A stretch of 40,812 bases of DNA from a virus. A program made the position numbers and the translations under genes. Position 1 is the stretch's first letter. Each line of letters opens with the position of its first letter. Of this stretch, positions 4,134 through 39,428 are shown piece after piece. The notes beneath the pieces are model-generated. The model was not told the origin of the DNA and did no database searches. It saw only the letters and a list, made by a program, of their open reading frames with translations. The stretch covers positions 1-40,812 of the IMG/VR virus record IMGVR_UViG_3300044710_000210; one strand, 5' to 3'.

Positions 4134-6413
4134 CTAGCTGGTCTGCGTGGTGACGACGTCGTCGCCGATCTGGGTGTCGAGCGCGATGTCGTCCATCGTC
4201 GGCGAGGTCGTCACGAGGATGAGCATCCGGAAGATGCCTAGGCTCGTCGGCGACACACCGCCCGGGGGCGCGAGGTTCGGCGTCTTCGTGTCGAGGAAGA
4301 AGCCCGCGATGCGCTGCTGGTTCAGGTTCGTCGGCGACAGAAGCCCGAGGAGGAACCCGCGCACCATGACCGTAAGTGCCTGCTGCAAGGCGAGGGTCAT
4401 GAGCTGCTTCGAGTACGGATCGAGCGCCGTCGCCAGCGAGTCCTGAATGAAGTCCGCCATGCGCCGGCGGTGGATGGGCGCGAGCTGCGGGTAGTTCGCA
4501 GGGTTCACACTCGTCACGCCGCTCTGGAAGATGAGCGTTCCGTACGAGAACTTCGCCGCACAGATCCCGTTCGCCTTGAAGTTGATGTAGTCCTGCAGCG
4601 CCAAAGCGACGCCGCCGTTCACGTTCGGCTCGAGCGCGATCGCCGCACCCGTGAACGCCGTGAGCTGTCCGGGGTTGTCCTCGGGCGGGAGGTTGCTCAT
4701 GACCGAGCAGAGGAAACCATCGGCGCCGACGGTGACCACGCCGGTCGCCGTGAAGCCCGTCCCACCCGCGAGCCCGATGGTCGCGATCGCGGGGATGCTC
4801 GTCGTCACCCCCGGGTAGGTGTAGATGATCCGCTCGTACGAGTACGCGCCGACGCCCGGCTGCGCCACCGAGCTCTCGGCCTGGCTCGCCAGCGTGCCGA
4901 TGGGCGGACGGATGACCGCGACGCGCCCGAGCACACCCAGACCACCGCCGTCGCCGACCTGCTGCACCTGGACCTTGAGCGCCTGCCGGATCGCGTCCGA
5001 CTGCCGCGCCGACCAGATGATGTTGATGTCGTGCGACACGTCCTGCGGGTTCGTCATGAGCGCCATGGCGTTCACGTACGCCGCGTCGATCGCGCTCTCG
5101 GTCAACGGAACAGCCACGGGCAACGGGTTCGTCACCGCGTAGCTGTCGAGCGTGATCACGCTCAGCGGGTTGATGACCGTCACCGTGTTCACGAGCGCGC
5201 CCGTGGTCACGGTGAGGTCGTCGTCGGTCGCCGGCCGGATGGGCACCGAGTAGGGACCCGCGCCGCTGGGCGTAATGCCCGTCTGCGCCGTCGCCGTGAC
5301 GGTGATGCTCTGCATCGTGACGTACTGGTTCCCACCCGACACGCCAACGATCGTGCCCGCGGGAATCACGCCCGCGTTGCCCGTCGACGCCGCGTCCGTC
5401 ACCCCGATCGGGAACCCGAAGGCGAGCGCCGTCGTCGTCGACGCGATCTTCAACGTGTCAGTCGCGGGGTTGCTGCTCACGAGGTACATGCGCAGCTGTC
5501 CGCTGGGCAGCTGCTCCACGAGCACCGCGTTCGTCGTGGCGAGCGCAACCGCCGTGTTGAGCTCGCTCGGAGCGACCGACGCGATGTTCGCGACGTTGCC
5601 CGTGCCGTTCGTGTTGGCGACCGTGAAGTTCAGGACGCCCGAGCCCGCAGCCGTGCCGCCGAGCACGCGCACCTGGCCACCGGTGCCCTTCTGAAGCCCG
5701 GTGAGCGAGATGGTCGTGCCGGACACCGTCGCCGCCATGGTGAAGCCGGCGAACTGGTTGATGCGCGCGATCACGGCCGCCTGGGTCGTGTCGGTCGCCT
5801 GGAAGACGACCGTGAAGTTCGGCATCGCGTCCGCGCCGAGCTGCAACGTCATCCCCGCCGTAATCGCGGCGTACGTCTGCGAACCGCTGGTGACGGTGGC
5901 CGCGACGCCCGTGAACGTCACGACCGTCGCCGAAGCGCCGTCGATCGAGATGTCGAGGTGCTGCCCGCTCGTGAGCTGGTAGGAGAAACTCTGCCCACCG
6001 AGAAGGTTCGCCTGCCGCGTGAACTGCACCGCGCCGCACGACGTGTTCACCCGCATGATGAGCAGGCGCGAGAACGTCTTGCCGTTCAACTGCACGGCCC
6101 CGTTGCCGTTCCAGTACTCGGCGAGGACCGCGCCGTCGCCGAAGCGCTGACGCGCGCTCGGGTTCTGCCCGACGATGCCGTTGTAGGTGTACCCGAAGCC
6201 GCCGAAGACCGCGGCGAGCTGGGTCGCACTCGTGACCTCGGTGGTCACACCAAAAGGGCCGTTCTCGAACTCGCCGACGATTGCCGTCGTCCCCGTGCCT
6301 ACCCCGATGATGTTCGCCGGGGGGCTCCGGTCGAGGATCATCACCCCTTCGATCTGGGTAAGGACCGAGTTACCGGGATCGTAGGTCCAGCGCCTCGTGA
6401 ATCCGATTGACAT
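4134..6413 (-). CDS. Contractile tail sheath protein, with a large inserted beta domain
   Basis: This 759-residue protein begins MSIGFTRRWTYDPGNSVLTQ, then IEGVMILDRSPPANIIGVGT and GTTAIVGEFENGPFGVTTEV. This is the usual opening of sheath proteins of contractile phages and related injection systems. The C-terminal part (ADFIQDSLATALDPYSKQL and what follows) matches the conserved domain that interlocks subunits. Roughly residues 110-430 are Thr/Gly/Ala/Val-rich strands that look like inserted surface domains; many sheaths are 400-500 residues. The leader holds a 30-bp element shared only with the major capsid gene. The start ATG 6413 follows GGCGGAGGC. Expression is expected to be high. Confidence 0.9.
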   Translation of the reverse strand: MSIGFTRRWTYDPGNSVLTQIEGVMILDRSPPANIIGVGTGTTAIVGEFENGPFGVTTEVTSATQLAAVFGGFGYTYNGIVGQNPSARQRFGDGAVLAEYWNGNGAVQLNGKTFSRLLIMRVNTSCGAVQFTRQANLLGGQSFSYQLTSGQHLDISIDGASATVVTFTGVAATVTSGSQTYAAITAGMTLQLGADAMPNFTVVFQATDTTQAAVIARINQFAGFTMAATVSGTTISLTGLQKGTGGQVRVLGGTAAGSGVLNFTVANTNGTGNVANIASVAPSELNTAVALATTNAVLVEQLPSGQLRMYLVSSNPATDTLKIASTTTALAFGFPIGVTDAASTGNAGVIPAGTIVGVSGGNQYVTMQSITVTATAQTGITPSGAGPYSVPIRPATDDDLTVTTGALVNTVTVINPLSVITLDSYAVTNPLPVAVPLTESAIDAAYVNAMALMTNPQDVSHDINIIWSARQSDAIRQALKVQVQQVGDGGGLGVLGRVAVIRPPIGTLASQAESSVAQPGVGAYSYERIIYTYPGVTTSIPAIATIGLAGGTGFTATGVVTVGADGFLCSVMSNLPPEDNPGQLTAFTGAAIALEPNVNGGVALALQDYINFKANGICAAKFSYGTLIFQSGVTSVNPANYPQLAPIHRRRMADFIQDSLATALDPYSKQLMTLALQQALTVMVRGFLLGLLSPTNLNQQRIAGFFLDTKTPNLAPPGGVSPTSLGIFRMLILVTTSPTMDDIALDTQIGDDVVTTQTS

Positions 6414-6460
6414 GGGTGGAAGCCTCCGCCGTGCTCATCGCGACTTCGCTACCCGCGTTA

Positions 6461-6491
6461 CCCGGCTGTTTTTACCCGCGCCGGTTCGGTG
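6461..6491 (-). promoter_or_regulatory. 30-bp leader element shared with the capsid gene (sheath copy)
   Basis: The minus strand reads CCGAACCGGCGCGGGTAAAA, then ACAGCCGGG, 48-78 bases upstream of the sheath start. It matches 12858-12887 except for one extra A in the A run. It occurs only before the two genes expected to be most highly expressed, so a strong late promoter or an RNA-stabilising leader are the two readings. Confidence 0.6.
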
Positions 6492-6557
6492 ATGGGTGGC
6501 TCTATCTGCGGCGGAGCATGTCAGAGCGTCCGCTTCCGAAGCAAACCAAGGGACGGG

Positions 6558-6935
6558 TCAAAGTGAGGTCGACCTCACTTTCACGAATCCTGGTCGCGAC
6601 CGTACGGGACGTCGTTCGCGCATCGCAGCGCGCGCTTGGGGGGCGCTCTTGGGGAGCAACACCGCCTTCGGGAGCACCGGCAGCGGGCGTCGCGTCGAAA
6701 GCTCGAGGGTCACCGGTGGACAGCACGGGCCTTTTGCCGAGCATCGGTAGTACCGAACGCCCGACGCGATCCGAAGCCGGTTGAGGTCCACCTCACGTCG
6801 AAACTCGCCGGCGACATTCGAATCGTACGAACCCCACGCGGGTTCGTACACGACGTAGATGCTCACGTACTGCGTCGGCGCAAGGAGACGCCACGGGCCA
6901 CTGGTCTGCGCCGGCCACTGCGAGTTTCCGATCAC
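6558..6935 (-). CDS. Probable neck or tail-completion protein, unknown family
   Basis: This 125-residue protein starts at GTG 6935, overlapping the upstream stop as GTGA. The first 70 residues are strand-rich and aromatic (QYVSIYVVYEPAWGSYDS), while the last 50 are Arg/Pro-rich. The frame runs straight through the palindrome 6560-6581, so the protein ends KVRSTSL. A second, degenerate palindrome (6778-6799) lies inside the coding region as REVDLN. Position between the neck protein and the sheath gene suggests a tail terminator or connector, but I do not recognise the family. The basic tail may be genuine or may reflect a lost stop codon upstream. Confidence 0.6.
   Translation of the reverse strand: MIGNSQWPAQTSGPWRLLAPTQYVSIYVVYEPAWGSYDSNVAGEFRREVDLNRLRIASGVRYYRCSAKGPCCPPVTLELSTRRPLPVLPKAVLLPKSAPQARAAMRERRPVRSRPGFVKVRSTSL
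6560..6581. promoter_or_regulatory. Palindromic operator, perfect copy
   Basis: A perfect 22-bp copy with core GTGAGGTCGACCTCAC. It lies in the 3-prime end of the gene 6558-6935 and about 150 bases upstream of the sheath start. No phased hexamer follows on either side, so it may act as a downstream block rather than a promoter operator. Confidence 0.75.
6778..6799. promoter_or_regulatory. Degenerate palindrome inside a coding region
   Basis: The core reads TGAGGTCCACCTCAC, one mismatch at the centre of the core plus weak flanks. It lies within the gene 6558-6935. It may be a decayed copy or chance. Confidence 0.3.
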
Positions 6936-7795
6936 GACCTCGGCCCTGACGGGTACACCGCGCCACCGGTCGCTGGGTTCGGAGGAACGACGAGAGGGTT
7001 CGCGTACGCGGGGATCTCGGTATCGGCCTGCGCCGCCACGGTCGTCTCGACGTAGTTCACCAGGCGCACGACATCGAACGCGACGAACACGTACAGGCGA
7101 CACATGCGCCGGTTTTTCACGGCGCCGTCGTCGGGCCACTCCACCCGCTCGAGCATGAAGCGCGCGGTCTGCCCGTAGTAGTCGGGCATCACCACGATGA
7201 ACCCTTGCCGCTCGGCGGTGGGGTTGAACGCCTGCTCGAGCTTCGCGACCATCCCGCGGAGCTCGGGGAGCTGGCTCGACCACACCTCCAGCGGGATGAC
7301 CTCCTCGCGTTCCTCCTGAGGGACGAGCACCGTGCCGATGCCGAACACGTCCTTCGTCGCCGCGTTCGCGCGCATCGGGCCCATGCCTCGAGGCCTGTTC
7401 GTCACGTCGCCGTTCATGCACGCGATGCTCGGGAAGTTGAGATCCTCCTCGGGCCCCGGTCGTTCCTCGTAGAAGTTCTCGGGCGGGATCGAGAAGAACA
7501 CCGGGTTCCCACCCACCTGACCCGGTCGGCAGAAGACCAGGCCCGTCAGGTACGCGCCGAGCACGCGCAGCGCCGCTGTACGTCCGTCCAATGGCGGATT
7601 GCCCGGATTGCCTCGTCCGGGAAAGACCTGCCCGATCGGAGTGCCTTGGATCAGCTGCGCCGGCGTCGGCGCCTGCGGAGGGTTCAGGATGGGCGTCGGC
7701 TGAGGACCCGGCGGGATCGGGGGCTGCGCCGCCGGCGTCCCCGGGGACGCGTCGCGGTACGGCGGAAGCGGCGGATCACGCGGAGGGCGGTTCAC
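6932..7795 (-). CDS. Probable neck or tail terminator protein with Pro-rich N-terminus
   Basis: The protein has about 287 residues. The first 65 are very Pro-rich and probably disordered (PPLPPYRDASPGTPAAQPPI). From about residue 70 a folded domain follows with strands such as GFIVVMPDYYGQTARFMLER and RRMCRLYVFVAFDVVRLVNY. The position two genes upstream of the sheath fits a neck or tail-terminator role, but no family is recognised. I choose GTG 7795 because TAGAGT lies seven bases upstream, as at the other leaderless starts; GTG 7804 would overlap that hexamer. The gene is divergent from 7825, and the two promoter hexamers are only four bases apart. Confidence 0.6.
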   Translation of the reverse strand: MNRPPRDPPLPPYRDASPGTPAAQPPIPPGPQPTPILNPPQAPTPAQLIQGTPIGQVFPGRGNPGNPPLDGRTAALRVLGAYLTGLVFCRPGQVGGNPVFFSIPPENFYEERPGPEEDLNFPSIACMNGDVTNRPRGMGPMRANAATKDVFGIGTVLVPQEEREEVIPLEVWSSQLPELRGMVAKLEQAFNPTAERQGFIVVMPDYYGQTARFMLERVEWPDDGAVKNRRMCRLYVFVAFDVVRLVNYVETTVAAQADTEIPAYANPLVVPPNPATGGAVYPSGPRS

Positions 7796-7802
7796 GAAGG
7801 AC

Positions 7803-7818
7803 ACTCTAGCGGCATCAT
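7803..7818. promoter_or_regulatory. Back-to-back leaderless promoter hexamers
   Basis: The minus strand carries TAGAGT (7808-7803) seven bases before GTG 7795. The plus strand carries CATCAT (7813-7818) six bases before ATG 7825. Only four bases separate the two hexamers, and no palindrome is present here. Confidence 0.55.
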
Positions 7819-7824
7819 CTCCGT

Positions 7825-8028
7825 ATGACGAAGGAGCAACGCGAACTCATCGAGGCGCACGGTCCGTATAGGCTCCGAAAGGACGGTGTCCTCATCGACG
7901 GAAACGGGTTCGCACTCGCTGCTTTTCACGACGGCAGTTCGCCGTGCGAATGGGACCGCGCCGTCGTCCACATGCTGAACGACGTGTACGACGCGAGCTT
8001 GAAACCCTACCGGACCGAACCCACGTGA
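7825..8028 (+). CDS. Small unknown protein of a plus-strand two-gene unit
   Basis: This 67-residue protein reads MTKEQRELIEAHGPYRLRKD, then DGVLIDGNGFALAAFHDGSS. It looks like a compact helix-plus-hairpin fold. I do not recognise the family. The ATG lies six bases after CATCAT within the longer repeated string TAGCGGCATCAT, with no Shine-Dalgarno, so it is a good leaderless candidate. The stop overlaps the next start as GTGA, so the two genes form an operon opposed to the surrounding neck genes. Confidence 0.65.
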   Translation: MTKEQRELIEAHGPYRLRKDGVLIDGNGFALAAFHDGSSPCEWDRAVVHMLNDVYDASLKPYRTEPT

Positions 8029-8321
8029 GACGGAAGCTTCCGCCCCTCGCGAAGACCGAGCCGAGGCCGTTCGTCGACGTGACGATCTGGGGCGACCAAA
8101 ACCACCTCCTCGCGGTCAAGGGCTACGAGGACAACAACAAGTCGCTGAGCGAGCTACGGTACGAGTGCGGCGCGCACCCGACGTACAAGGACCGCAGGCG
8201 CGTGTTTCGCATCGCCGGTGGCGGCCGCATGCCGCGCATCTGCCCGTCATGCGTCCGCGCCCAACCCCGCGCGCGCATCGTCGAAGACCCACCGCCCAAG
8301 AAGCGCAAGGCCGACGACTAG
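8025..8321 (+). CDS. Small unknown protein with a CPSC pair
   Basis: This 98-residue protein starts at GTG 8025 overlapping the previous stop. It has a central Trp/Gly/Asp-rich segment (VDVTIWGDQNHLLAVKGYED), a YECGAHPTYK segment, then RICPSC and a basic tail (PPKKRKADD). The Cys residues (ECG and CPSC) with a nearby His could form a small zinc site. No family is recognised. Its TAG stop overlaps the TAG of the convergent gene in a shared CTAG at 8318-8321, the same geometry as at 2080-2083. It is probably an accessory gene transcribed from the promoter before 7825. Confidence 0.6.
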   Translation: MRRKLPPLAKTEPRPFVDVTIWGDQNHLLAVKGYEDNNKSLSELRYECGAHPTYKDRRRVFRIAGGGRMPRICPSCVRAQPRARIVEDPPPKKRKADD

Positions 8322-8860
8322 ATCTTCTCGAGCCGACGGCCGATCTCCTCGCGCATGTACTTCGGGATCTCTTTCGACGCCTCCTCGAGCACGCGCAGCC
8401 CTTTCGGCGGGAAGATGCCTTTCTTCTTCATCGACATCGCGATCGCCCACGCGATGCTCGTCGCTTCGGTGTTCGTCGCCTTGATGTGACGAGTGCTCCC
8501 GTCCTTGCTCGTCACGATCCGACCGCCGATCCCCTTGCGCTTCACCCACGCGGCCAGCGCCGTGATCATCGCTCGACCGATCTTGATGTTCGCCGCGCGA
8601 GCTCCGTACTCGACGACCGCGGCGTGCGGGGCGACGTTCTCCACGATCGCCCCCTCGCGGTCCTTTCTCGCGCGCCACCCCGCGCGGTACGCCCCGCGGT
8701 CGACCGGCGGATGCGGCCGAGACGGGATGACGGTCGAGACGATGTGCGCGACGACCCGGTATGCCGCAGCGAGCAAGCCTTCCATGGCCGCCTTGTGCAC
8801 GTCCTTCTTGATCGCGTCGATCATCAAACCCGCATCCGCGAGCTTCCAAACCTTCGCCAC
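8318..8860 (-). CDS. HK97 gp10-like tail completion protein
   Basis: This 180-residue protein has the hallmark segment VENVAPHAAVVEYGARAANI. It resembles the NxAPYAxxVExG motif of the HK97 gp10-like neck or tail-completion family, preceded by the typical helix and SRPHPPVDRGAYRAGWRARK. These proteins sit at the head-tail junction. The gene lies among other neck genes between capsid and sheath, as expected. It starts three bases after the previous stop and ends in a CTAG shared with a plus-strand gene. The match is from memory of the motif, but context and size agree well. Confidence 0.75.
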   Translation of the reverse strand: MAKVWKLADAGLMIDAIKKDVHKAAMEGLLAAAYRVVAHIVSTVIPSRPHPPVDRGAYRAGWRARKDREGAIVENVAPHAAVVEYGARAANIKIGRAMITALAAWVKRKGIGGRIVTSKDGSTRHIKATNTEATSIAWAIAMSMKKKGIFPPKGLRVLEEASKEIPKYMREEIGRRLEKI

Positions 8861-11362: not shown

Positions 11363-11383
11363 CGAGTCGACTAGGCCGACTCG
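11363..11383 (-). terminator. Weak hairpin over the major capsid stop codon
   Basis: CGAGTCG and CGACTCG pair around a seven-base loop and include the capsid TAG. The downstream strand reads GGCTTTCG, so the U run is poor. It may slow transcription or protect the mRNA end. Confidence 0.35.
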
Positions 11384-12780
11384 ATGATGACCGCGCGCTT
11401 GTAGAGCGCGCCGCTGGACGTGGCCGTGATGTCGGTCGGCGCCGCGAAGGCGGTCGAGATCGAGTAGGTGCTCGACACGACGTCCTGCAGCCGATCGAGC
11501 GGCGAACGGATGACGAGCCGAAACCGGTCCGTCGAAACGCTCATGCCCTGGTTCGCCGTGTCGAACTCGCCGACCTTGCCGGTCACGCCGGCCTCCGAGA
11601 TGTACTGCATCTCGTCGAAGCCGCGCTCGATGAGCGCGCCCTTGCCGGTGATGAGCGTGCGGTTGATGGGCACTCCCGCCGCGTTCACGACCTCGCCGCC
11701 GATGTCGAAGGCGTAGACCGAGCTCTGGCCAGCGCTGTCGTTCACCTGACCCGAGGTCGTCGTGAGCGACGGCGATTCGTTGTTCATGAGGAACATGACC
11801 CCGAGCGCCGGGTTCAACCACCCCTGCTTGTAGTTCGGGTGGTCGGGCAAGGCCGTGTTGAGGCGCTGCCACGCGGGGTCGTTGAAGATCTCCGCGTTCA
11901 TGTTGCTCGGCAGGTGGCCGTGGTACCAGCCGTCGTCGTGCGGGAACACGTTGTTGCCGCGCAGCGCGGCGACCGCGTTGTTGATGTCGGTGAGGGTGAA
12001 GGTGTCGGCCGCGCTGATCGCGTCGACGCCGTACCCACCGCCCGCGCGCACCACCGTCGGCGCGTACACCGACAACACCGGCGTCCTCTGGGGGACCGCC
12101 GTGCCGAGTGTGGACCCGAGGAGAAGCACGCCCGGGCTGTTCGGATCGTTCGGGTTGTTCAGGATGATCCCGACGACCGTGTTCGTGAGGGTCGTCCCGC
12201 TCGACAGTGGGATCGTGATGGGCAACGGGTTCGCCGAGCTCACCGCGACCGGACGAACGTTCGTCGCCGGCTGCACGATGGTCTGGAACCCGTTCACGCT
12301 CGCCACCTGGATCTGCGTGTCGGTCGACAGGCCCGCGACCGTGCTCATCGTCTGCCCCGACAGGTAGGGAACGAAGAGCGCGTTACGCGAGACGCGGTTG
12401 ATCGACTGCGCAGCCTGGATGCCGAGCTGCTGGATGTTGCGCATGAACTGGTCGGCCTGCGAGAGCACCGAGGTCGGCATGTGCGTGTCGATGGATCCGG
12501 TCCACCGCTGCATCGTGACGATCCACTGCTCGTAGGTGAGCGTCTGCGGCACCGGGTCGGTCCCAGGAACCTGGGGCACGATGTTCGGCGCGAGCAGACC
12601 GGCGCGGGTCATGACGACCTGCGTGCCGACGTTCGCGACCCACTCTTCGAACAGCGCTTCCTGCCGGTAGATGAACGTCGGGAGCAGCGCGTCGTGGAAG
12701 GCCCTCTCCAGCAAGCCCGTCTGGATGAGGTTCAGAATTGCCGGCGGGATGCCGAGGACGATGCCCGTGGGACCAGCCAT
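11371..12780 (-). CDS. Major capsid protein
   Basis: This 469-residue protein starts MAGPTGIVLGIPPAILNLIQ, followed by a helix-rich arm (LLERAFHDALLPTFIYRQEA). A long run of mixed strands and helices follows. One stretch (LSQADQFMRNIQQLGIQAAQ) resembles the spine helix of HK97-fold capsids. A middle insertion (about 180-310) is Thr/Val/Asn-rich. Length and composition suit a capsid subunit that forms the icosahedral shell. It follows a typical scaffold gene, which is the strongest contextual support. The leader of about 80 bases holds the 30-bp element also found before the sheath gene. No specific capsid subfamily can be named with certainty. Confidence 0.8.
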   Translation of the reverse strand: MAGPTGIVLGIPPAILNLIQTGLLERAFHDALLPTFIYRQEALFEEWVANVGTQVVMTRAGLLAPNIVPQVPGTDPVPQTLTYEQWIVTMQRWTGSIDTHMPTSVLSQADQFMRNIQQLGIQAAQSINRVSRNALFVPYLSGQTMSTVAGLSTDTQIQVASVNGFQTIVQPATNVRPVAVSSANPLPITIPLSSGTTLTNTVVGIILNNPNDPNSPGVLLLGSTLGTAVPQRTPVLSVYAPTVVRAGGGYGVDAISAADTFTLTDINNAVAALRGNNVFPHDDGWYHGHLPSNMNAEIFNDPAWQRLNTALPDHPNYKQGWLNPALGVMFLMNNESPSLTTTSGQVNDSAGQSSVYAFDIGGEVVNAAGVPINRTLITGKGALIERGFDEMQYISEAGVTGKVGEFDTANQGMSVSTDRFRLVIRSPLDRLQDVVSSTYSISTAFAAPTDITATSSGALYKRAVIIESA

Positions 12781-18402: not shown

Positions 18403-18424
18403 AAAGTGAGGTCGACCTCACTTT
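18403..18424. promoter_or_regulatory. Palindromic operator, perfect copy, with phased -10 TAGGGT
   Basis: On the plus strand the palindrome is followed by five bases, TAGGGT (18430-18435), six bases and GTG 18442. On the minus side it lies just upstream of the GCGGCATGAT element. It is the left of two perfect copies flanking the MuF gene. Confidence 0.8.
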
Positions 18425-18441
18425 CCGCGTAGGGTCTTCCC

Positions 18442-19449
18442 GTGCCCGAAACGACCGATCCGGTGGCGGTCCTTCGCCGAGCTCGCGCCGAAGCCATCGC
18501 GATCAGCGACAAGGCGTCGGGACGAGCGCTCTACCGCCTCTTGCGCGATGCCGAGGACGATCTCGCGTACCGCATCACCCGGCACAAGCGGCTCCGCCCG
18601 CTCGGAGAAGGGACCTTCACCCGCGAACAGATGGAGATCACGATCCGCCAAATTCGCGACGTGATGAAGCTCCTCGTGCGCCGCATGGGACCGCAGATCG
18701 CCGATGCCGCGGTCGACGCCGCGGGCGCCGCATCCGAAGGGGTCGCCGATTACCTCACCGCAGCCGAGGCGAAGTTCACCGGCATCACGACGGGGCTCGC
18801 TCTCGACGAAGCGGCGATGACCGACGCGGCGATCGCAGGGACAAAAGCCTCGGTCGTCCGCCGCTTGATGGTCGAGCACCCCGACGGTCGCGGAGGGGGG
18901 ATCCTGCAGCGCTACGGCTTCGAGGTCACCCGCAAGTTCGAAAAGGAGCTGTCGATCGCCGTCGTCACGAAGAAGCCGTTCGACGAGGTGCGCGAGGCGC
19001 TCGTCGAGAAGTCGCCGTTCCTCCAAGGAGCACCTCGTTCATGGGCCGAGAGGCTAACGAGAACGGAGCTTCACGGGGCGTACAACCGCGGTTCCCATCA
19101 AGCCATGCAACGCGCCGAAGCCGACATCGGACCGATGCTTCGCATCCTCGTCGCGACGTTCGACAATCGCACGGGCCCTGACTCGGTGAACGTCCACGGG
19201 CAGATCCGCAGGATGAACGAGCCGTTCGACTACGTGAACTACGACGGCGACCACGAGTCGTTCATGACTCCGCCGAACAGGCCCAACGACAGGGAGACCG
19301 TCGTGGCGCACATGGCCCGGTGGCCCATCCCTGCGAGCTTCCGTCCCAAGAGCGACGGGGAGGTCGAGCGCGCCTACAAGAAAGCCAAGCAGGACTACCA
19401 CGGGCGTCCCCACCCGATGAGCACCGTTCGGTTGCCGCTAGGAAAGTGA
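18442..19449 (+). CDS. MuF-like minor head protein, reversed orientation
   Basis: This 335-residue protein has the SPP1 gp7/Mu gpF signature. RLTRTELHGAYNRGSHQAMQ is followed by a domain with TFDNRTGPDSVNVHGQ and later SFMTPPNRPNDRETVVAHMA. This resembles the RTE...D.RT..H..G...PP...R.C pattern, although the usual CRC cysteines are absent. MuF proteins are internal minor capsid proteins linked to the portal and DNA entry. The gene normally lies just after the portal on the same strand; here it is reversed and bounded by perfect palindromes at 18403-18424 and 19443-19464. It starts at GTG with the leaderless layout. Its TGA lies inside the right palindrome. Confidence 0.8.
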   Translation: MPETTDPVAVLRRARAEAIAISDKASGRALYRLLRDAEDDLAYRITRHKRLRPLGEGTFTREQMEITIRQIRDVMKLLVRRMGPQIADAAVDAAGAASEGVADYLTAAEAKFTGITTGLALDEAAMTDAAIAGTKASVVRRLMVEHPDGRGGGILQRYGFEVTRKFEKELSIAVVTKKPFDEVREALVEKSPFLQGAPRSWAERLTRTELHGAYNRGSHQAMQRAEADIGPMLRILVATFDNRTGPDSVNVHGQIRRMNEPFDYVNYDGDHESFMTPPNRPNDRETVVAHMARWPIPASFRPKSDGEVERAYKKAKQDYHGRPHPMSTVRLPLGK

Positions 19450-19464
19450 GGTCGACCTCACTTT
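19443..19464. promoter_or_regulatory. Palindromic operator, perfect copy, between convergent stops
   Basis: Both convergent genes end inside this copy: the plus-strand TGA (19447-19449) and the minus-strand TGA (19458-19460) are symmetrical parts of the palindrome. No start lies downstream on either strand, so it cannot be a promoter operator here. Confidence 0.8.
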
Positions 19465-19745: not shown

Positions 19746-19946
19746 CTACACCGGGCACTTCGCGAGATGCGCGCGCGGTAATCCTGCCCTGCGAAGGAGC
19801 TTCTCCGCGGCAACGCAAAGGTCGCACGCGCAGACGGACTCCCACGCGATCGCGCGGAACCGCTTCGCCGCGTGCACGTGGAGCACGTGGTAGGCGTGCT
19901 GTTCGCTACTCGGCGTCCTTGGCTTTGCGGAACACGATCGCGCCAC
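19746..19946 (-). CDS. Possible small protein downstream of the portal
   Basis: The frame gives up to 66 residues ending AHLAKCPV, with Cys residues CACDLCVAAEK that could pair. An ATG at 19946 would overlap the portal gene by 41 bases. GTG 19886 would avoid the overlap and give 46 residues. Neither has a clear ribosome site. The helical C-terminal half looks coding, but the evidence is modest and no family is recognised. The TAG stop is part of the TAGCGGCATCAT string used by the next gene. Confidence 0.35.
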   Translation of the reverse strand: MARSCSAKPRTPSSEQHAYHVLHVHAAKRFRAIAWESVCACDLCVAAEKLLRRAGLPRAHLAKCPV

Positions 19947-22323
19947 GGTTCACCTTCTCCCCGTCCTCCCAGACGCCGTGCCACCGAGCGACGAACTCCT
20001 CCTCGGACAGCGTGCGCATGCCCGCCTCCCCGCGCGCGGGATCCATGACGGACACCCCGTCGTCGTTCGCTTCCTGAAACGCGACGTAGTGGCCCTCGTC
20101 GTAATCCTCCGCCGGATCGTCGAAGAACTGGATGAGCAAGACGATGAACGCGCCGTGCTCCTTGGCATCGGCGATCTGCTCGACCGACGACTTCTTGAGC
20201 ACCTGCGCTTCGAGGCCCAGTGCCTCGCCTGCGGCGATGAGCTCACTCGGTTCGGCGCCGATCTTCGGGTCGACTCCGATCGACTCGACGATCTCGGCTT
20301 CGCCGGGTGTCGGCAAGTCGAAGAACGTGAGCGCCGAACGCAAGCACGCGACGCCGCACGTGTACGTCGTGCGCTGCTTGACGACCGGAACGTCCTCGAA
20401 GTCGAGGTCGCCGCCCGAATCCTTCTTCCCTCCCGCCGGCGGGAGCTTCGGGCCCTTGAGCTTGGGCAGCGCCGGCAACACACCGGGGGCGCCCGGCTTC
20501 CCAGCGCCACCAGGAACGCCCGGCTTCCCGGGCTGCCCCGGCACTCCCCCTGGAGCTCCGGGCGCGCCAGGGACCCCACCGGGGGCGCCGCCCGGGAGCA
20601 TCTTCGGGGGTTCAGGCTTGTCGTCCTCCCCCGTGCTCGAGATCTTGAGCTCCCCGTCGCCCGGCAAAGGCTTCGTGAGCTCCGTCGTACGCCCGCCTGC
20701 GTCGGCATCCGCGAACGCGTTGGCGGCCGTTTCATGGTCCGCCTGCTGCTCGCTCTGCAGCCGTTTCCACTCGTCGTCGGGGTCCTTGCCGAGCGCCTTG
20801 GCCGCTTCCTCGTTCGCGGTGCGGACAGAGAGCACCTGCTTGTTGCCCGTCGCCGCGCTCAGCGTCGTCATGTCCTTCTGCCGGTCGTCCGGGGTCGTCT
20901 GGAAGTACGGGGGCCACTTCGCGTCGATGTCCTCGCTCGTTCCCGGATTCCGATCCTGCAGCTTCTCGGTCTTCTCACCGGTCGTTGGGTCGGGCTCGTT
21001 GATGACCCGCGGCGGCAGGACGACAACCTCCTCGTCCTCGCGAGTCCGCGCGACGCGCATCATCGCCAGAACGAGACGCTTCGCCGCCTTGCCGTACGTC
21101 GCGCGCAGCACGTTCCCCGCGGAGAGCATGGGCGCGTAGATGAGCTTCAGCGCGACGCTGGACACGCCGGCGGCCGCAACCTCGTTCGGGTCGGCAAGGA
21201 TGCACTGAGCGACCTCAAGGATTGCGCGCTTCTTCGCTTCGAATAGGGCGAGCCCCGCCGTGACCGACGTGCCGGCGAGCTCGAGGTACTTCGCATCGCC
21301 GTCGGAGCCGACCTTGAGCGCGTTGTCCGATCCCTTCGAGATACTCCGGCTCATCGCCAGAATCGCCGGATCCATCTTCAGGACCAGTGTGGGGTCGAGG
21401 TTCAGCGTCGTGCCGCGGGTGAGCACCGAGTACACGACGTCGAGGTCGTCGAAGTCGTCGGTCTGCCCTTCGTAGTCAGGGAGCCCGTCGATGTCGTCGC
21501 TCGGGATGTTCTGGATCCAAGCGAAGTGCGCCTCGCCGTCGTTGTGAACGACCCGCTCCGCGGGGGTCCACACGGGCTCGACGACGCGTCCAGAATCGTC
21601 GCGCACGGGCACGGGCTCGAACAGGACGTCCTGCGTCTCGTCCCAATAGCGGTGATACCAGTACCAGTTCCGGACGAACTTGTTCTTGCGGTCGTCCCAG
21701 TCCTGCCACGGATAGACGTAGACCTCGCTCACCGCCTTCGGGATGAGCTCCTGTCGATCGGCCCACTCGTGGGCGAACAGATGCTTCGCGCGGTGAACCT
21801 CGACCCGCGGCTTGCCCGCGTGGAAGCACCACGACATGCCGACCGTGCCGCAGTTGCCGCCCCAGTTTCGCGCTTGGTGGAACTTCGTCCAGAGCTCACT
21901 CGCCGAGGCGAGCGCGTTTGCGTAGTCGGTCGCGTCGTCGTCCCCGGGGAACGAGAACGACGGCGTGCGCTCCTCGCCGAACAGAAGAGCGCTGAACGCG
22001 CTGTTGATGAGCTTGGCGAGCGGGTACTGCGCGCGCGGGTACCGTTGCGCGAGCGGGGCGAACCACGGCGCCGGCGAGCTCGCGAACGTCGGATAGCTGG
22101 TCGGCGAACCTGGCTGACGCAGATTGCCGTCGAAGTCGACGAGCTTGTGCTGGTGCTGGCAGCACTCCCCGTACGACTCGCGCCGCGCGAGCAGCTGGTA
22201 GCGATCGCTCGAGATGAGGGTGCGCGCAGAGAAGCCCGACCCGAAGGTCATCGGCTGCTCCTTGCCCATCGACGAGTGAGGGTCGACGGCGAATTGAGGG
22301 CCCAGGGTGACCGCGCTCGCCAT
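19906..22323 (-). CDS. Portal protein fused to a collagen-like linker and C39-type peptidase
   Basis: This 805-residue protein has residues 1 to about 560 that look like a large portal: an N-terminal clamp (SDRYQLLARRESYGECCQHQ), crown-like Trp-rich part and a C-terminal helix run ending with ATGNKQVLSVRTANEEAAKA. A Gly-X-Y stretch follows (about 578-615, GAPGAPGGVPGQPGKPGVPG). A C39-like peptidase domain occupies about 648-805. Its motifs are Q650 and C656 (KQRTTYTCG), His745 (EGHYVAF) and Asp761 (VMDPARG), so the triad looks intact. This could be the head-maturation protease, joined to the portal. ATG 22323 is used; a TTG four codons earlier lies in the promoter hexamer. Confidence 0.8.
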   Translation of the reverse strand: MASAVTLGPQFAVDPHSSMGKEQPMTFGSGFSARTLISSDRYQLLARRESYGECCQHQHKLVDFDGNLRQPGSPTSYPTFASSPAPWFAPLAQRYPRAQYPLAKLINSAFSALLFGEERTPSFSFPGDDDATDYANALASASELWTKFHQARNWGGNCGTVGMSWCFHAGKPRVEVHRAKHLFAHEWADRQELIPKAVSEVYVYPWQDWDDRKNKFVRNWYWYHRYWDETQDVLFEPVPVRDDSGRVVEPVWTPAERVVHNDGEAHFAWIQNIPSDDIDGLPDYEGQTDDFDDLDVVYSVLTRGTTLNLDPTLVLKMDPAILAMSRSISKGSDNALKVGSDGDAKYLELAGTSVTAGLALFEAKKRAILEVAQCILADPNEVAAAGVSSVALKLIYAPMLSAGNVLRATYGKAAKRLVLAMMRVARTREDEEVVVLPPRVINEPDPTTGEKTEKLQDRNPGTSEDIDAKWPPYFQTTPDDRQKDMTTLSAATGNKQVLSVRTANEEAAKALGKDPDDEWKRLQSEQQADHETAANAFADADAGGRTTELTKPLPGDGELKISSTGEDDKPEPPKMLPGGAPGGVPGAPGAPGGVPGQPGKPGVPGGAGKPGAPGVLPALPKLKGPKLPPAGGKKDSGGDLDFEDVPVVKQRTTYTCGVACLRSALTFFDLPTPGEAEIVESIGVDPKIGAEPSELIAAGEALGLEAQVLKKSSVEQIADAKEHGAFIVLLIQFFDDPAEDYDEGHYVAFQEANDDGVSVMDPARGEAGMRTLSEEEFVARWHGVWEDGEKVNRGAIVFRKAKDAE

Positions 22324-22344
22324 GCTCCCCGGCAACCTACCTTC

Positions 22345-22373: not shown

Positions 22374-23084
22374 TCACCAGTGCAAGAAGTGCGAGAGCGC
22401 CGCGATCGCCGCCATGATCGCCGAGAAGCCACCGCCGGCGATCTTCGCCCACCGAAGCCGGCGGTCCCACGCCTTGATGTCGTCGAGGTTTTTCTGCGCC
22501 TGGAGGTCCCGCTCCTCCTCCGCGCCCTTCGCGCGCGCCTTCTCGAGCTCGCGCTGCCGCTCGGCCTCTTTCTTCTCCTCCTCGAGCACGGCCATCTTCG
22601 CGGTCAGGTCGGCGAGCTGGCCGTTCATCGCTGCGACGCTCTTTTCCACCTCGCCCCACGCCTCGTGGACGACGTCGGCGGGAAACGATCCGCTCTTGGA
22701 CGCGCGGCCCAGGCTCGCGATCGGGGGAATCGACGCCTGGGCGACGACCATGGGCATCGACACGGGAGTCGGCCTGCGCTCGAGGTCGACGAGCCGGTCG
22801 CCGTGCTCCTCGAGTGTTTGCTTCATCTCGGTCTGGTCGCGCTTGATCCCGCGGATGTCGAAGCCCTGCTCGTTCTGCTGGTACTCGACACGACCGATCG
22901 CGTCGGTCAGCTCTTTGTGCCCCGTGCCGAGCTTGTCGACCTTGATGAGAATCTCGCGGATGCCGTTGCCGATGCCTTGCATCGTCTCGGGCGCCGGCGG
23001 GGGCGGCTTGGGCGGTCGCGGAAGTTCGGCCACGGCGAAAAGTCTCCTACGAGGTACGAAGTGCGCAAGCGCGACGGCACTCAT
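22374..23084 (-). CDS. Coiled-coil protein with one C-terminal membrane helix
   Basis: This 236-residue protein has a Pro-rich N-terminus, then long heptad segments (RDQTEMKQTLEEHGDRLVDL; LEEEKKEAERQRELEKARAK), and ends with a hydrophobic helix (WAKIAGGGFSAIMAAIAALS). One membrane helix at the C-terminus and a charged coil before it recall XhlA-type or holin-like proteins, but it is longer than those. Its operon mates are a receiver domain and a lipoprotein, so a signalling or envelope role is also possible. ATG 23084 overlaps the upstream stop as ATGA. Assignment is uncertain. Confidence 0.55.
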   Translation of the reverse strand: MSAVALAHFVPRRRLFAVAELPRPPKPPPPAPETMQGIGNGIREILIKVDKLGTGHKELTDAIGRVEYQQNEQGFDIRGIKRDQTEMKQTLEEHGDRLVDLERRPTPVSMPMVVAQASIPPIASLGRASKSGSFPADVVHEAWGEVEKSVAAMNGQLADLTAKMAVLEEEKKEAERQRELEKARAKGAEEERDLQAQKNLDDIKAWDRRLRWAKIAGGGFSAIMAAIAALSHFLHW

Positions 23085-23536
23085 GATTCGCTTTCGGGTG
23101 TTGCTTCCTCTTCGGTTTCAGGTGCATGCGCATCTTCGGGCGTCGTGACGGCCGCGCTCCCTTCGGTGGTCTCCAGATGCCGGAGCACAGCCAGAAGATG
23201 ATCGCCGTCGACAGGCTTACCGAGCACGACCGTCACCCCCTGAAGCGGGTTCACGGTGCCCGCCGCGAGCTCCTCGGATGACTTCCCCGTCACGACCACG
23301 ATCGGGATCGTGCTGAGGATCGGGTCGCATCGCATGATGCCCGCGATCTCCTCGCCGCTCTTGCCGGGCAATCCGAGGTCGAGGATGACGACGTCGAAGT
23401 CGATCGCCGAGTAGCGCAGCTGCTCGAGCGCACGGTCCCCCGTGGCCGCCCACGACACCACGTGCCCCGCGTTCTCCAAGATCCGGATCTCGACGCGGCG
23501 GGTCGGCTCGTCGTCTTCGACCAGAAGGACTCTCAC
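23081..23536 (-). CDS. Stand-alone CheY-like receiver domain protein
   Basis: This 151-residue protein is a response-regulator receiver. It has the acidic pair D8-D9 (MRVLLVEDDE), the phospho-acceptor D53 (ILDLGLPG), T83 (VVTGK) and K107 (LGKPV), all conserved, and about 120 residues of domain. A Glu/Pro-rich acidic tail of about 30 residues follows, with no output domain. A single-domain receiver could take phosphate from a host histidine kinase and act by binding a partner, or compete with a host regulator; this is inference. The start GTG 23536 overlaps the upstream stop. It is co-transcribed with the fibre cluster. Confidence 0.85.
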   Translation of the reverse strand: MRVLLVEDDEPTRRVEIRILENAGHVVSWAATGDRALEQLRYSAIDFDVVILDLGLPGKSGEEIAGIMRCDPILSTIPIVVVTGKSSEELAAGTVNPLQGVTVVLGKPVDGDHLLAVLRHLETTEGSAAVTTPEDAHAPETEEEATPESES

Positions 23537-29677: not shown

Positions 29678-29953
29678 CTACTTCGGACACGGAACCGCGA
29701 GCGACCCGCCCTCCGCCCAGATGAGGCGAGCGTCGGTGATCGTCTGCGCTGCCGCGCACGGGTTGCCCGCGTCGACGAGCACGACAGTGCCGGCGTCGGT
29801 CACCGTGATCGTCACGTCCGCCGGCGCCGGAGACCCGGGCGCGGACGGAGTGCACGACAGGATGATCTGGCCGACGACGAGTCCGCCCAACACGAGGGCG
29901 AGCATTCCGAGACGCATGACGAGGAGATGGATGACAGGGAGCTGGATGTTCAT
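29678..29953 (-). CDS. Small predicted lipoprotein in the lysis region
   Basis: This 91-residue protein has a long hydrophobic N-terminus (MLALVLGGLVVGQIILSCTP) with Cys near residue 34 in an LSC context, a weak lipobox. The mature part is Ala/Pro/Thr-rich with two more Cys (NPCAAAQ, VPCPK). It may be an outer-membrane lipoprotein, or the signal may be an uncleaved anchor. The ATG 29953 overlaps the stop of the papain-like gene (ATGA), so translation is coupled. A role in lysis or exclusion is inferred from neighbours only. Confidence 0.6.
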   Translation of the reverse strand: MNIQLPVIHLLVMRLGMLALVLGGLVVGQIILSCTPSAPGSPAPADVTITVTDAGTVVLVDAGNPCAAAQTITDARLIWAEGGSLAVPCPK

Positions 29954-30843
29954 GGCGCGTTGTCCTCAAACGGAAGTGCCGACCAATTCGCCTCGACGAA
30001 CTCCTCCGAGGCCCACACGTATCCCCCCTCGCACCAGTCCGCGCCCCAGCTGTTCAGCACCTTGTACTGGCGCTTCTTCGTGCCGTTCACCGAAACGGTC
30101 TTGTACGCGAGATAACCCATCGCGTGCCCGCCGGCAGTCGGGTCGCTCGGGTCGCAAGGCTGCGCGATGTCGCCCGCGACGAGCGCCTGGAACGCCTGCC
30201 CGACGAGCGTGCCGAACCACACGGGCCTCTTCGCCTCGAGCGAGGCCGCGACGAGGTCTCCCGCGCCCGCCCCCGTGGCGATGTCGTAGCTGCCGCCGAA
30301 TGGGACGGTGATGCCCGTCTCCGCCTCGGGAACGGTGAGCTCGGGCAGAAGGATCGGATCGCCGTCATCGTCCTGCGTCGCCGGCACGTCGGTGTTGCCG
30401 TCCTGCTCGGGTTTGCCGAACGGCACGGAACCGAATCGAGCAAACGCATCGCGCGCGTCGTCCAGCTGCGCTCCCTGGTCTTCGAGCCCGGGTCCGGGGA
30501 GAGGCATGCCCGCGGGCGTCTGCGCGTCGCGATAGAGCGCGTACATGATCTTCGCGAAGAACAGCGGGCTCACCATGTCCGCCTTGCCGCTGCGGATCAT
30601 GTCGACGACGAACTTCAACGCGGTCGCCGAGTGCGCCCAGCATGTTTCGCTGAGCCCCTGGTTGAGGATCCGCTTCACGAAGGCCGTGAGGTCGGCCTGT
30701 CCGCTCAGCGCCTTCAACGCCTTCATGATGGGCGCGTGCTCGGTCACGGGGGTGAGCGCGAGCGAGACGAGCGCCGTCGCGGGGTCCTTCTGCTTCAGAC
30801 CGCGACCGACCTTGGCACCCGACGGAAGCACGATGACGCTCAT
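29950..30843 (-). CDS. Papain-like (C1-type) cysteine protease
   Basis: This 297-residue protein has the papain catalytic pattern. NQGLSETCWAHSATA gives oxyanion Gln62 and nucleophile Cys68, GGHAMGY gives His240, and VLNSWGADWCEGGYVW gives Asn264 and the conserved NSWG block. The middle (about 110-220) is longer than in typical papains and Asp/Pro/Gly-rich. No signal peptide is seen, so it may act in the infected cell or be carried in the virion. Phage C1 proteases are uncommon. ATG 30843 has GGGAGGA upstream, and an intrinsic terminator ends 22 bases before the start, so expression may be attenuated. Confidence 0.85.
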   Translation of the reverse strand: MSVIVLPSGAKVGRGLKQKDPATALVSLALTPVTEHAPIMKALKALSGQADLTAFVKRILNQGLSETCWAHSATALKFVVDMIRSGKADMVSPLFFAKIMYALYRDAQTPAGMPLPGPGLEDQGAQLDDARDAFARFGSVPFGKPEQDGNTDVPATQDDDGDPILLPELTVPEAETGITVPFGGSYDIATGAGAGDLVAASLEAKRPVWFGTLVGQAFQALVAGDIAQPCDPSDPTAGGHAMGYLAYKTVSVNGTKKRQYKVLNSWGADWCEGGYVWASEEFVEANWSALPFEDNAP

Positions 30844-30866
30844 TCGATTCCTCCCAGGAAAAAGAA

Positions 30867-30899
30867 CGCCCACCGGAGATGCTCTCAATCCGGTGGGCG
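30867..30899 (-). terminator. Intrinsic terminator just upstream of the papain-like gene
   Basis: An 11-bp stem (CGCCCACCGGA with its complement) and an 11-base loop are followed by TTCTTTTTCC. It lies between a palindrome with TACTTT (30939-30934) and the start at 30843, so the promoter-hairpin-gene order allows attenuation. It may instead just end the upstream unit. Confidence 0.75.
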
Positions 30900-30949
30900 C
30901 CCTGCCCACGGTCCCACCGGGAACCTGCGCAGGAAAGTAGCCGGAATCG

Positions 30950-37616: not shown

Positions 37617-39428
37617 TCACCTCCGCATCACGCGCTGCCCGACCGAAAGCTCGCCCGCCATGCTCGACGGTCCCATCGACAAGGCGCCGAGCTTCATCGC
37701 CAACGAGCGAGCGATGAACGACGCCATGAGCACATCCGCCGTGTGCCGGGTCGGCGAGTAGCCCGTGCACGCCTCGGCGAACCGATCCACGTTCCGGTGC
37801 ACGCGCCCCTCCTGGGTCGTCGGGATGAGCCACCGCCCTTCGGCCATCTCGTAGAAGATTCCGATGACCCCTTGCCACGGGTGCGCCTTCCCCTGCGCCG
37901 TCGTGTTGTGCGACCGGATGGGAAGGTCCTTCGCCATGGAGCGAGCGATCTGGATGAGAAACTCCTGGGTCGCGTTGTTCTCGACCGCGGCGAACGACTT
38001 GTACAAGCGGATCTTGTCGAGCAGCTTCGTGATGATCGTCATCGCGTCCCAGTTGCCGATGTCGATGTCGAGGATCTGGCACAACCCCTCGACCCGCACC
38101 TTCTCCGGCTTCGGTGGCCCGATCGCCTGCATCTGCATGCGGGTCACCCAGTCCTCGCCCCGCACCGCGAACGTAAAGAACGCCGTCTGCCCGCCCTTCT
38201 TGTCCGGAGTGACCGCGAGGTCCACCCCCGTGAACGTCCACCACCCGCCCATCGACTGCTCGTCGAACATCGGCACGAGTCCGAAGACCTTGAGCTCGAT
38301 CGCCTGCTTCTTGCACCGCTCGACGAACTCCTTTTTGCAAAGGGCGGTCGTGTCGTCGTTCGGATCGGACAGAAACAGCCGATTGAACATGCCCGGTGCG
38401 TGCTGGTAGTTCGTCCGTTCCTTTTCGAGCTGCTCCTTGTCGTAGCGGTCCGGCCACAGCGTCTCGCCCTCGTCGCGCTCGACGAGCCGGCACTTCATCG
38501 ACCCGTCGTTCTCGATGACCCCCGTGCTCACGAGCTCGGGGCACTCCCAGTGCTTGTCCTCGTTCGCGACCCACACGTCGCCGGCGGCGCTCATGCGCAA
38601 GGTGGGCATGAACTTCGCGATGCGGTTCACGTAGTCCTGCGGATGCCACGTCGTGTTGATGACGATGAGCCGGCTCGACTTCTTCGGCTCGAGCCGGTTC
38701 GTCACCTGCCCGAAGAACTTGTCGTACGTCGCCTGCCGCTGCTCGGGAGTTGACGTGTTCTCGAGGTTCAAAAGGTCGTCCACGATCACGTAGTCGATGC
38801 GGGACCCGGGCATCGACTCGCTGTCGATGCCCATGGCCACGAAGGACGGGTCGCGGATTCCGAGCGGACGGTCGACGGTGATCGCCGTGTCGCTCCACGG
38901 CTCGCCCGGACGCCGAGACGGGATGAGCTTCGGCATCACCAAGCGCAGCGCCTCGCTGGACTCGATGAGCTGCCGCAAAAGGACGAGCGGCTTCTTCGCT
39001 TGTTGTTGGGTCGCGCTCACGAACAGCCCGCGCATGCGCGGATTGCGCCCGAGCATCCAAAGGCCGAGCCCGGTGCACGTGGTGGTCTTGCCGTGACCGA
39101 CCGCGAGGATGAGGACGCTCTTGTCGTGCGCCGGATGGTTGACGAACGACAGGATGACCTTCTGGTGAGCGGGGACCTTGACGGGTTTCTGCGTCGACTC
39201 GTCGCGCAGGACGAGCTCGAAGAACGGCACCGGGTCGTCGTAGGCGCGCTTGGCCTTGGCGACGAGCGCCTTCGCGGCGAGGTTGGCCCGCTCGTCCGGG
39301 GACATCGCGCGCACCTTCGCCAACGCCAGGTTGGCGGCTTGGTCGCGGCACGCGCGCTTCGCACACCACCCCGCATCGAGGACCGATAAAGGTCCCCCGC
39401 AGCCCTTGCACCGGGCCTCTCGTTGCAA
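37617..39428 (-). CDS. Terminase large subunit with an N-terminal zinc finger
   Basis: This 603-residue protein packages DNA into the prohead. Cys residues C7, C10, C22 and C27 form a small N-terminal zinc finger. The ATPase has Walker A GHGKT at 111-115 and Walker B YVIVDDLL with D217-D218. A coupling-type motif LIVINTT lies at 254-260. The nuclease domain opens with GVDLAVTPD (D403), with AVENNATQEF as a further acidic site. The start is TTG 39428, chosen for its GGAGG site and for including the zinc finger; a later start would remove it. A perfect palindrome lies 32 bases upstream. The small subunit is not identified. Confidence 0.9.
   Translation of the reverse strand: MQREARCKGCGGPLSVLDAGWCAKRACRDQAANLALAKVRAMSPDERANLAAKALVAKAKRAYDDPVPFFELVLRDESTQKPVKVPAHQKVILSFVNHPAHDKSVLILAVGHGKTTTCTGLGLWMLGRNPRMRGLFVSATQQQAKKPLVLLRQLIESSEALRLVMPKLIPSRRPGEPWSDTAITVDRPLGIRDPSFVAMGIDSESMPGSRIDYVIVDDLLNLENTSTPEQRQATYDKFFGQVTNRLEPKKSSRLIVINTTWHPQDYVNRIAKFMPTLRMSAAGDVWVANEDKHWECPELVSTGVIENDGSMKCRLVERDEGETLWPDRYDKEQLEKERTNYQHAPGMFNRLFLSDPNDDTTALCKKEFVERCKKQAIELKVFGLVPMFDEQSMGGWWTFTGVDLAVTPDKKGGQTAFFTFAVRGEDWVTRMQMQAIGPPKPEKVRVEGLCQILDIDIGNWDAMTIITKLLDKIRLYKSFAAVENNATQEFLIQIARSMAKDLPIRSHNTTAQGKAHPWQGVIGIFYEMAEGRWLIPTTQEGRVHRNVDRFAEACTGYSPTRHTADVLMASFIARSLAMKLGALSMGPSSMAGELSVGQRVMRR

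Follow-up and report, generated by a model that had tools for sequence, protein, structure and literature searches.

A phage gene encoding a portal protein, a Gly/Pro-rich tail and a C39-type peptidase domain: relatives and possible role

A viral DNA of 40,812 nucleotides (IMG/VR record IMGVR_UViG_3300044710_000210, positions 1 to 40,812; the whole stretch is called the window) contains a locus at which a portal-like protein is followed in the same reading frame by a peptidase of the C39 type. The locus raises the question of whether the two parts belong to one gene and, if so, what a peptidase at the end of a portal would be used for. An earlier note on this DNA had offered two uses, namely maturation of the scaffold or capsid from the vertex and delivery through it.

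The fusion gene and its surroundings

A single intact minus-strand open reading frame covers the portal, the tail and the C39 domain (Table 1). The one-frame arrangement proposed in the earlier note is thus borne out by the intact frame and by matches to PHROG 64 and PF03412. The positions given at that time, 19906-22323, do hold the gene, but the strand had been omitted and the start is either of the two codons listed in Table 1. The plus-strand reading of 19906-22323 is interrupted by a stop codon, and plus-strand open reading frames overlapping the gene were taken as shadows of the minus frame. GC contents at codon positions 1, 2 and 3 are 0.65, 0.46 and 0.89 on the portal side (residues 5-570) and 0.69, 0.40 and 0.89 on the C39 side (residues 641-809), respectively; coding character is unbroken across both sides of the tail. 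The same portal-C39 frame was found in a second record (IMGVR 3300045020_000320), which differs by one substitution (F171Y), is otherwise identical over ~31 kb and may share a population with the window, so that it is not a fully independent record. A frameshift or an assembly join of two genes is rejected on the basis of the open frame, the constant codon bias and the fusion in the second record; there is no sign of the assembly error that had been named as a danger to the reading.

Table 1. Features of the fusion gene and of other genes in the window
Feature	Position	Strand	Remarks
Fusion gene, portal + Gly/Pro-rich tail + C39 peptidase	19906..22335	minus	809 aa, TTG start, alternative ATG at 22323
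Portal body, residues 5-570	20626..22323	minus	PHROG 64; 24% to annotated portal; 66-73% to L003/L004 portals
Gly/Pro-rich tail and linker, residues 571-640	20416..20625	minus	holds conserved LKGPKL where relatives end
Eight in-register Gly-X-Y triplets, residues 597-620	20476..20547	minus	single run
C39 peptidase domain, residues 641-809 (Pfam match 649-788)	19909..20415	minus	profile and model
Q654, oxyanion-hole glutamine	20374..20376	minus	
C660, predicted catalytic cysteine	20356..20358	minus	
H749, predicted catalytic histidine	20089..20091	minus	
D765, predicted catalytic aspartate	20041..20043	minus	
Small ORF directly after fusion gene, ~46-52 aa	19746..19904	minus	start uncertain; coding-like base composition; no convincing PHROG match
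Small ORF between fusion gene and MuF, ~90 aa	19461..19733	minus	no PHROG match
MuF-like head protein	18442..19449	plus	PF04233 E 4e-7; inverted relative to L003 and L004
Major head protein	11371..12780	minus	PHROG 1357 E 3e-14
Separate papain-like (C1) peptidase gene	29950..30909	minus	PF00112 E 3e-6
Large terminase subunit	37617..39428	minus	PHROG 38 E 2e-46

On the evidence of profile, annotated homologs and gene position, the N-terminal part of the fusion is assigned to the Caudoviricetes portal proteins. The PHROG 64 profile (portal protein) matches residues 133-550 (E 8e-8), the annotated portal of a Komagataeibacter phage aligns to residues 92-529 at 24%, and the phiKX2 portal shows 24-26% identity to that of the window. 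The gene sits between the terminase gene and the MuF/capsid genes, in an order syntenic with relatives. Of the two checks proposed for the portal, the profile search was positive, whereas structure prediction of the full-length fusion gave the portal part a pLDDT of 35 (low confidence).

The tail of the fusion contains 27% Gly and 27% Pro, and five GG pairs lie within the linker. It had been described as collagen-like, and a run of eight Gly-X-Y triplets is present, but no longer repeat was found and the tail is better called G/P-rich. At that site the portal tails of the two nearest relatives are G/P- or G-rich and contain no comparable Gly-X-Y run. A true collagen helix has no support beyond the eight triplets.

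The C-terminal domain is matched by PF03412 (Peptidase_C39) at 47.5 bits (E 2e-12), above the cut-off of 22. The Gln, Cys, His and Asp that had been reported in the expected C39 order are present, and their columns are invariant in comparison with 30 ABC-transporter C39 domains. A model of the domain built on 31 sequences has a pLDDT of 77 and a C39-like fold, and its best Foldseek matches are the PCAT1 and ComA peptidases (E ~1e-8 to 1e-7). Structural realignment gave Z values of 18.9 for PeiR (the highest among solved structures), 18.5 for PCAT1 (over 136 residues, rmsd 1.7), 17.7 for ComA, and 15.2 and 14.5 for papain-like toxin domains with immunity partners. The domain is thus predicted from the model to adopt the papain-like C39 fold; such Z values are common among papain-like folds and therefore show the fold and not the role. 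The NCBIfam family NHLM_micro_ABC1 matched the fusion below its cut-off (29 bits against 853). Identity as a bacteriocin-export ABC transporter (PCAT) was rejected, as the C39 domain is joined to a portal, without transmembrane and ATPase domains.

No immunity gene was recognised near the fusion, and neither of the two small downstream frames has a convincing PHROG match. The MuF protein of the window carries no extra domain. The papain-like C1 gene has counterparts, as homologs or as C1 profile matches, in the records of L004, L119 and L120 (four records including the window). A response-regulator receiver domain (PF00072, E 1e-15) is encoded at 23081-23536, a short distance upstream of the portal cassette.

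A perfect 20-bp palindrome, AAGTGAGGTCGACCTCACTT, occurs in the window in 13 exact copies and two variants (0.00 expected), at 1609, 6561, 10403, 14832, 15721, 18404, 19444, 22346, 27948, 28512, 30951, 35854, 37408, 39462 and 40782. The copies are nearly always intergenic, and many lie 13-45 nt upstream of a start codon, immediately past the preceding stop. The MuF gene lies exactly between two copies (18404-19464), as if one palindrome-bounded cassette had been flipped. The 14-bp core of the palindrome is present in 25 copies in the L004 record, and the six copies within the L004 locus itself read CCTTGAGGTCGACCTCAAGG in place of the AAGTGAGGTCGACCTCACTT of the window; the outer palindrome bases thus change in matched pairs. 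The same palindrome was also found in a 27.7-kb contig from the same sample, IMGVR 3300045020_000301 (L013, L014), which is possibly another part of the same phage genome.

Relatives of the portal and of the peptidase

The closest portals, those of L003 (73%) and L004 (66%), end at the tail segment LKGPKL/LKAPKP with nothing beyond. The capsid proteins of these two phages are 71-75% identical to that of the window, and the capsid, the sheath and many other genes are conserved in the same order; no C39 domain was found anywhere in either record (the records may be partial). A wider portal scan gave 19 loci, which include the second record, L003 and L004 again, and L118, which is cut by a contig end. 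Complete homologous portals range from 485 to 755 aa and have disordered tails of varying length. A C39 domain was not found in the 17 other complete homologous portals, and the fusion is confined to one phage species among them. The L120 portal is 41% identical to that of the window. Portal scans gave no match in the genome collection or in plasmids. Given the absence of C39 from the portals of close relatives, the domain is a lineage-specific, late gain at the end of a pre-existing tail.

A stand-alone C39 gene of 199 aa is also present in the L120 record. Its product aligns with the window domain over 162 residues at 30% identity (E 4e-16), and the gene is located far from the L120 portal and head genes, beside nucleotide-metabolism genes. 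Searches seeded with the window domain, this L120 protein and two C39 proteins from phage records of 595 and 735 kb yielded a group of 36 IMG/VR loci, mostly stand-alone genes, several of them in genomes >100 kb. The stand-alone homologs are ~200 aa long and have no Gly/Pro tail. Among the 32 members compared, the Cys and His are present in all, the Gln in 30 and the Asp in 31. R-W was found in 32/32 of these domains and the full R-W-H in 31/32, against 0/8 ABC domains, a conservation that is partly ascertained because one of the two search patterns included R-W-H. An insertion precedes the catalytic His in the window domain, which is ~27-34% identical to ABC-transporter C39 domains. In the tree it falls on the phage side of a well-supported split from the ABC side, on a long branch nearest L153, although its exact position is unsure. 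Judged by these sequence comparisons, the closest relatives of the window domain are the phage-borne R-W-H group and not the transporter peptidases. No match was found in the named-phage collection searched with the window domain, and the final viral scan, based on a mixed C39 alignment, added no further contigs. A scan of the genome collection was carried out with transporter seeds; among the at least 80 matches listed, mostly from Bacteroidota, the inspected ones were of the transporter type, as biased by the seeds.

Members of the group occur in several contexts. L144 encodes a 467-aa protein in which a MuF-like N-terminal part is joined to a C-terminal C39 domain; the MuF-like part aligns to the MuF of the window's phage group (hhalign E 2.5e-4) and contains ATEMHSA, CDDC and HPHC motifs. 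L177 encodes a 2674-aa MuF polyvalent protein with RelA/SpoT-like, 2H-like, C70/C39-like and C-terminal MuF domains. In L171 and L154, C39 is joined to an inorganic pyrophosphatase domain, a domain that also matches PHROGs of virion and DarB-like proteins. In L153 the gene order is portal, a separate C39 gene and MuF; its portal is 33% identical to that of the window over 480 aa (E 3e-61) and its MuF 26.6%. Portal and MuF profiles run over the C39 loci matched only L153 and the species of the window, both of which are among the profile members, and such a search would miss phages with unrelated portals.

Other features were seen in the portal-MuF stretch. L003 contains a zeta-toxin-type kinase gene directly after MuF (4587-5519), with an HPRDDKGKF stretch near the N-terminus of the product. 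L120 encodes an 832-aa MuF protein (6121-8619) with a long C-terminal extension, which by eye is ParB-like and acetyltransferase-like and for which Pfam recognises MuF only. The MuF gene of L119 (5340-7895) has a probable intein at the conserved RTE motif (PF14890, E 3.5e-7, below the cut-off). The portal-MuF stretch thus repeatedly hosts effector-like cargo in this phage group, as in the separate C39 gene of L153, the L003 kinase and the L120 extension.

Nine stand-alone C39 proteins (some near-identical) begin with a T4-like capsid-targeting pattern. For example, the L152 start, MKNYSEFLLEK, resembles MKTYQEFIAEA of T4 IpII/IpIII. The pattern, which was picked after the sequences had been viewed, occurs only in IpII and IpIII among 34 genes of one 14-kb T4 stretch, and in 15 of ~322 open reading frames neighbouring C39 loci. 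This is only suggestive of a T4-like capsid-targeting leader on stand-alone C39 proteins. Packaging of T4 internal proteins via such a leader, and their injection, are established (PMC3012670, PMC12373910); the similarity is restricted to some stand-alone homologs, whereas the window protein has no such leader. An N-terminal LxxFA/WA was also considered as a shared targeting signal in this phage group and was rejected (6 open reading frames against 4.0 expected).

Possible roles of the portal-borne peptidase

The C-termini of known portals face into the head. By analogy, the tail of the window portal would also point into the head and place the C39 domain inside, and about a dozen peptidase copies would be packaged with the DNA simply by being part of the portal. 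After adsorption the domain may be released by cleavage of the Gly/Pro linker, exit with or just after the genome and cleave a host protein, the most likely purpose being to weaken defence or shut down the host. A role of the portal-tethered C39 as a peptidase effector that is carried in the head and acts on the host early in infection is given only slightly better than even odds. Portals are not normally ejected; delivery would therefore need a cut, and release is the weakest step of this model. The restriction of the fusion to one phage species, the location of the L120 homolog far from head genes and the weak matches to lysin C39 domains also count against the effector role. Delivery through the vertex is favoured over maturation, since members of this C39 group are also found together with MuF, within polyvalent proteins and as stand-alone proteins with T4-like leaders. 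A broader proposal is that the widespread R-W-H phage C39 family consists of proteases packaged in the head and directed against the host or its defences, which reach the virion in different ways, by a T4-like leader, by MuF fusion, by inclusion in polyvalent proteins and by portal fusion (~twelve copies at the DNA exit); this extension to the family is considered somewhat less likely than not.

The use in maturation that had been put forward earlier is disfavoured. As a prohead protease, the portal-borne C39 would mature the scaffold, the capsid or the portal from the vertex; the domain would be within the prohead, adjoining the scaffold, and none of the scanned window genes was recognisable as a known prohead protease. 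However, no C39 is present in the available records of L003 and L004, whose capsid proteins are closely similar and whose gene order is broadly conserved, and the papain-like C1 gene common to the window, L004, L119 and L120 is a better candidate for capsid processing, which makes a prohead role distinctly unlikely. A virion-associated cell-wall peptidase, in which the head-carried C39 would cut peptidoglycan cross-links at genome entry, is unlikely but deserves more weight. Endolysin PHROGs are weakly matched by stand-alone C39 homologs, Gordonia phage lysin A proteins with an annotated C39 domain match the L138 homolog, and PeiR, the solved structure with the top Z value, is a pseudomurein endoisopeptidase; the kinship to lysin PHROGs and to PeiR is a distant one. 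Against this, the lysin A of Gordonia phage Daredevil lacks the R-W-H that all but one of the phage-group domains have and lies on a very long branch, and a Pfam-type profile scan recognised no cell-wall-binding domain in the fusion protein.

The C39 domain might instead cut only its own Gly/Pro linker or portal and have no other substrate. ABC-transporter C39 enzymes remove double-glycine leaders (PMC10318531), and the GG pairs of the linker could serve as such sites; GG pairs are also present in the tails of relatives without C39, however, and the stand-alone homologs lack such a tail, so that self-processing alone is improbable. A recent passenger fusion without function would agree with the occurrence in one phage species, whose two records are nearly identical. 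It is given very little credence, as the catalytic residues are all retained at ~30% identity to homologs and the codon pattern of the C39 part is as strong as that of the portal.

Comparison with known systems and meaning

Portals fused to PBECR, 2H and Nudix domains have been described, and the fusions have been interpreted as effectors that are packaged in the head and injected (Iyer et al. 2017, PMC5512222; NAD+-ADPr survey 2022, PMC9503650). In these proteins, too, a portal bears an additional enzymatic domain of a type that also occurs in MuF and polyvalent proteins; in the window, the added domain is a C39 cysteine peptidase. The polyvalent-protein peptidases in PMC5512222 are zincin-like, assemblin-like, DD and LonC, and the word papain is absent. 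MuF fusions to many effectors, including the papain-like Tox-PL1, have been published (Jamet et al. 2017, PMC5576092; Tox-PL1 and Tox-PL-C39 in PMC3482391). These MuF polymorphic toxins similarly combine a head protein with a papain-fold peptidase at the portal/MuF locus, but the carrier in the window is the portal and MuF is a separate gene.

The C39 domains of the ABC transporters PCAT1 and ComA share the fold and the Q/C/H/D set with the window domain; transporter domains are present only in the former, whereas the insertion before the His and the R-W-H belong to the latter. The C39 of a phage lysin (Gordonia phage Daredevil lysin A) and PeiR have a C39-like fold; the lysin has no R-W-H, and PeiR was compared by structure only.

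No paper on a portal-C39 peptidase fusion and none on an R-W-H phage C39 protease family was found in the searchable literature, which leaves most subscription papers outside it. The novelty suggested in the earlier note is accordingly narrowed: the pairing of portal and C39 was not found there, but portal fusions to other effector-type domains had already been reported. The protein would be a head protein with an effector domain, an already known type, and the C39 on a portal would be the new part.

If the proposed role is correct, the portal would carry an enzyme into the head in a fixed number of copies, and phage C39 proteases would become effectors of early infection that can be tested as a set. 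C39 in its loose form, fused to MuF, within polyvalent proteins and on the portal may represent several routes to one packaging problem. The stand-alone homologs of ~200 aa are easy to express and assay, and the R-W-H phage C39 group, whose members are probably packaged enzymes, is a more useful outcome than the single fusion.
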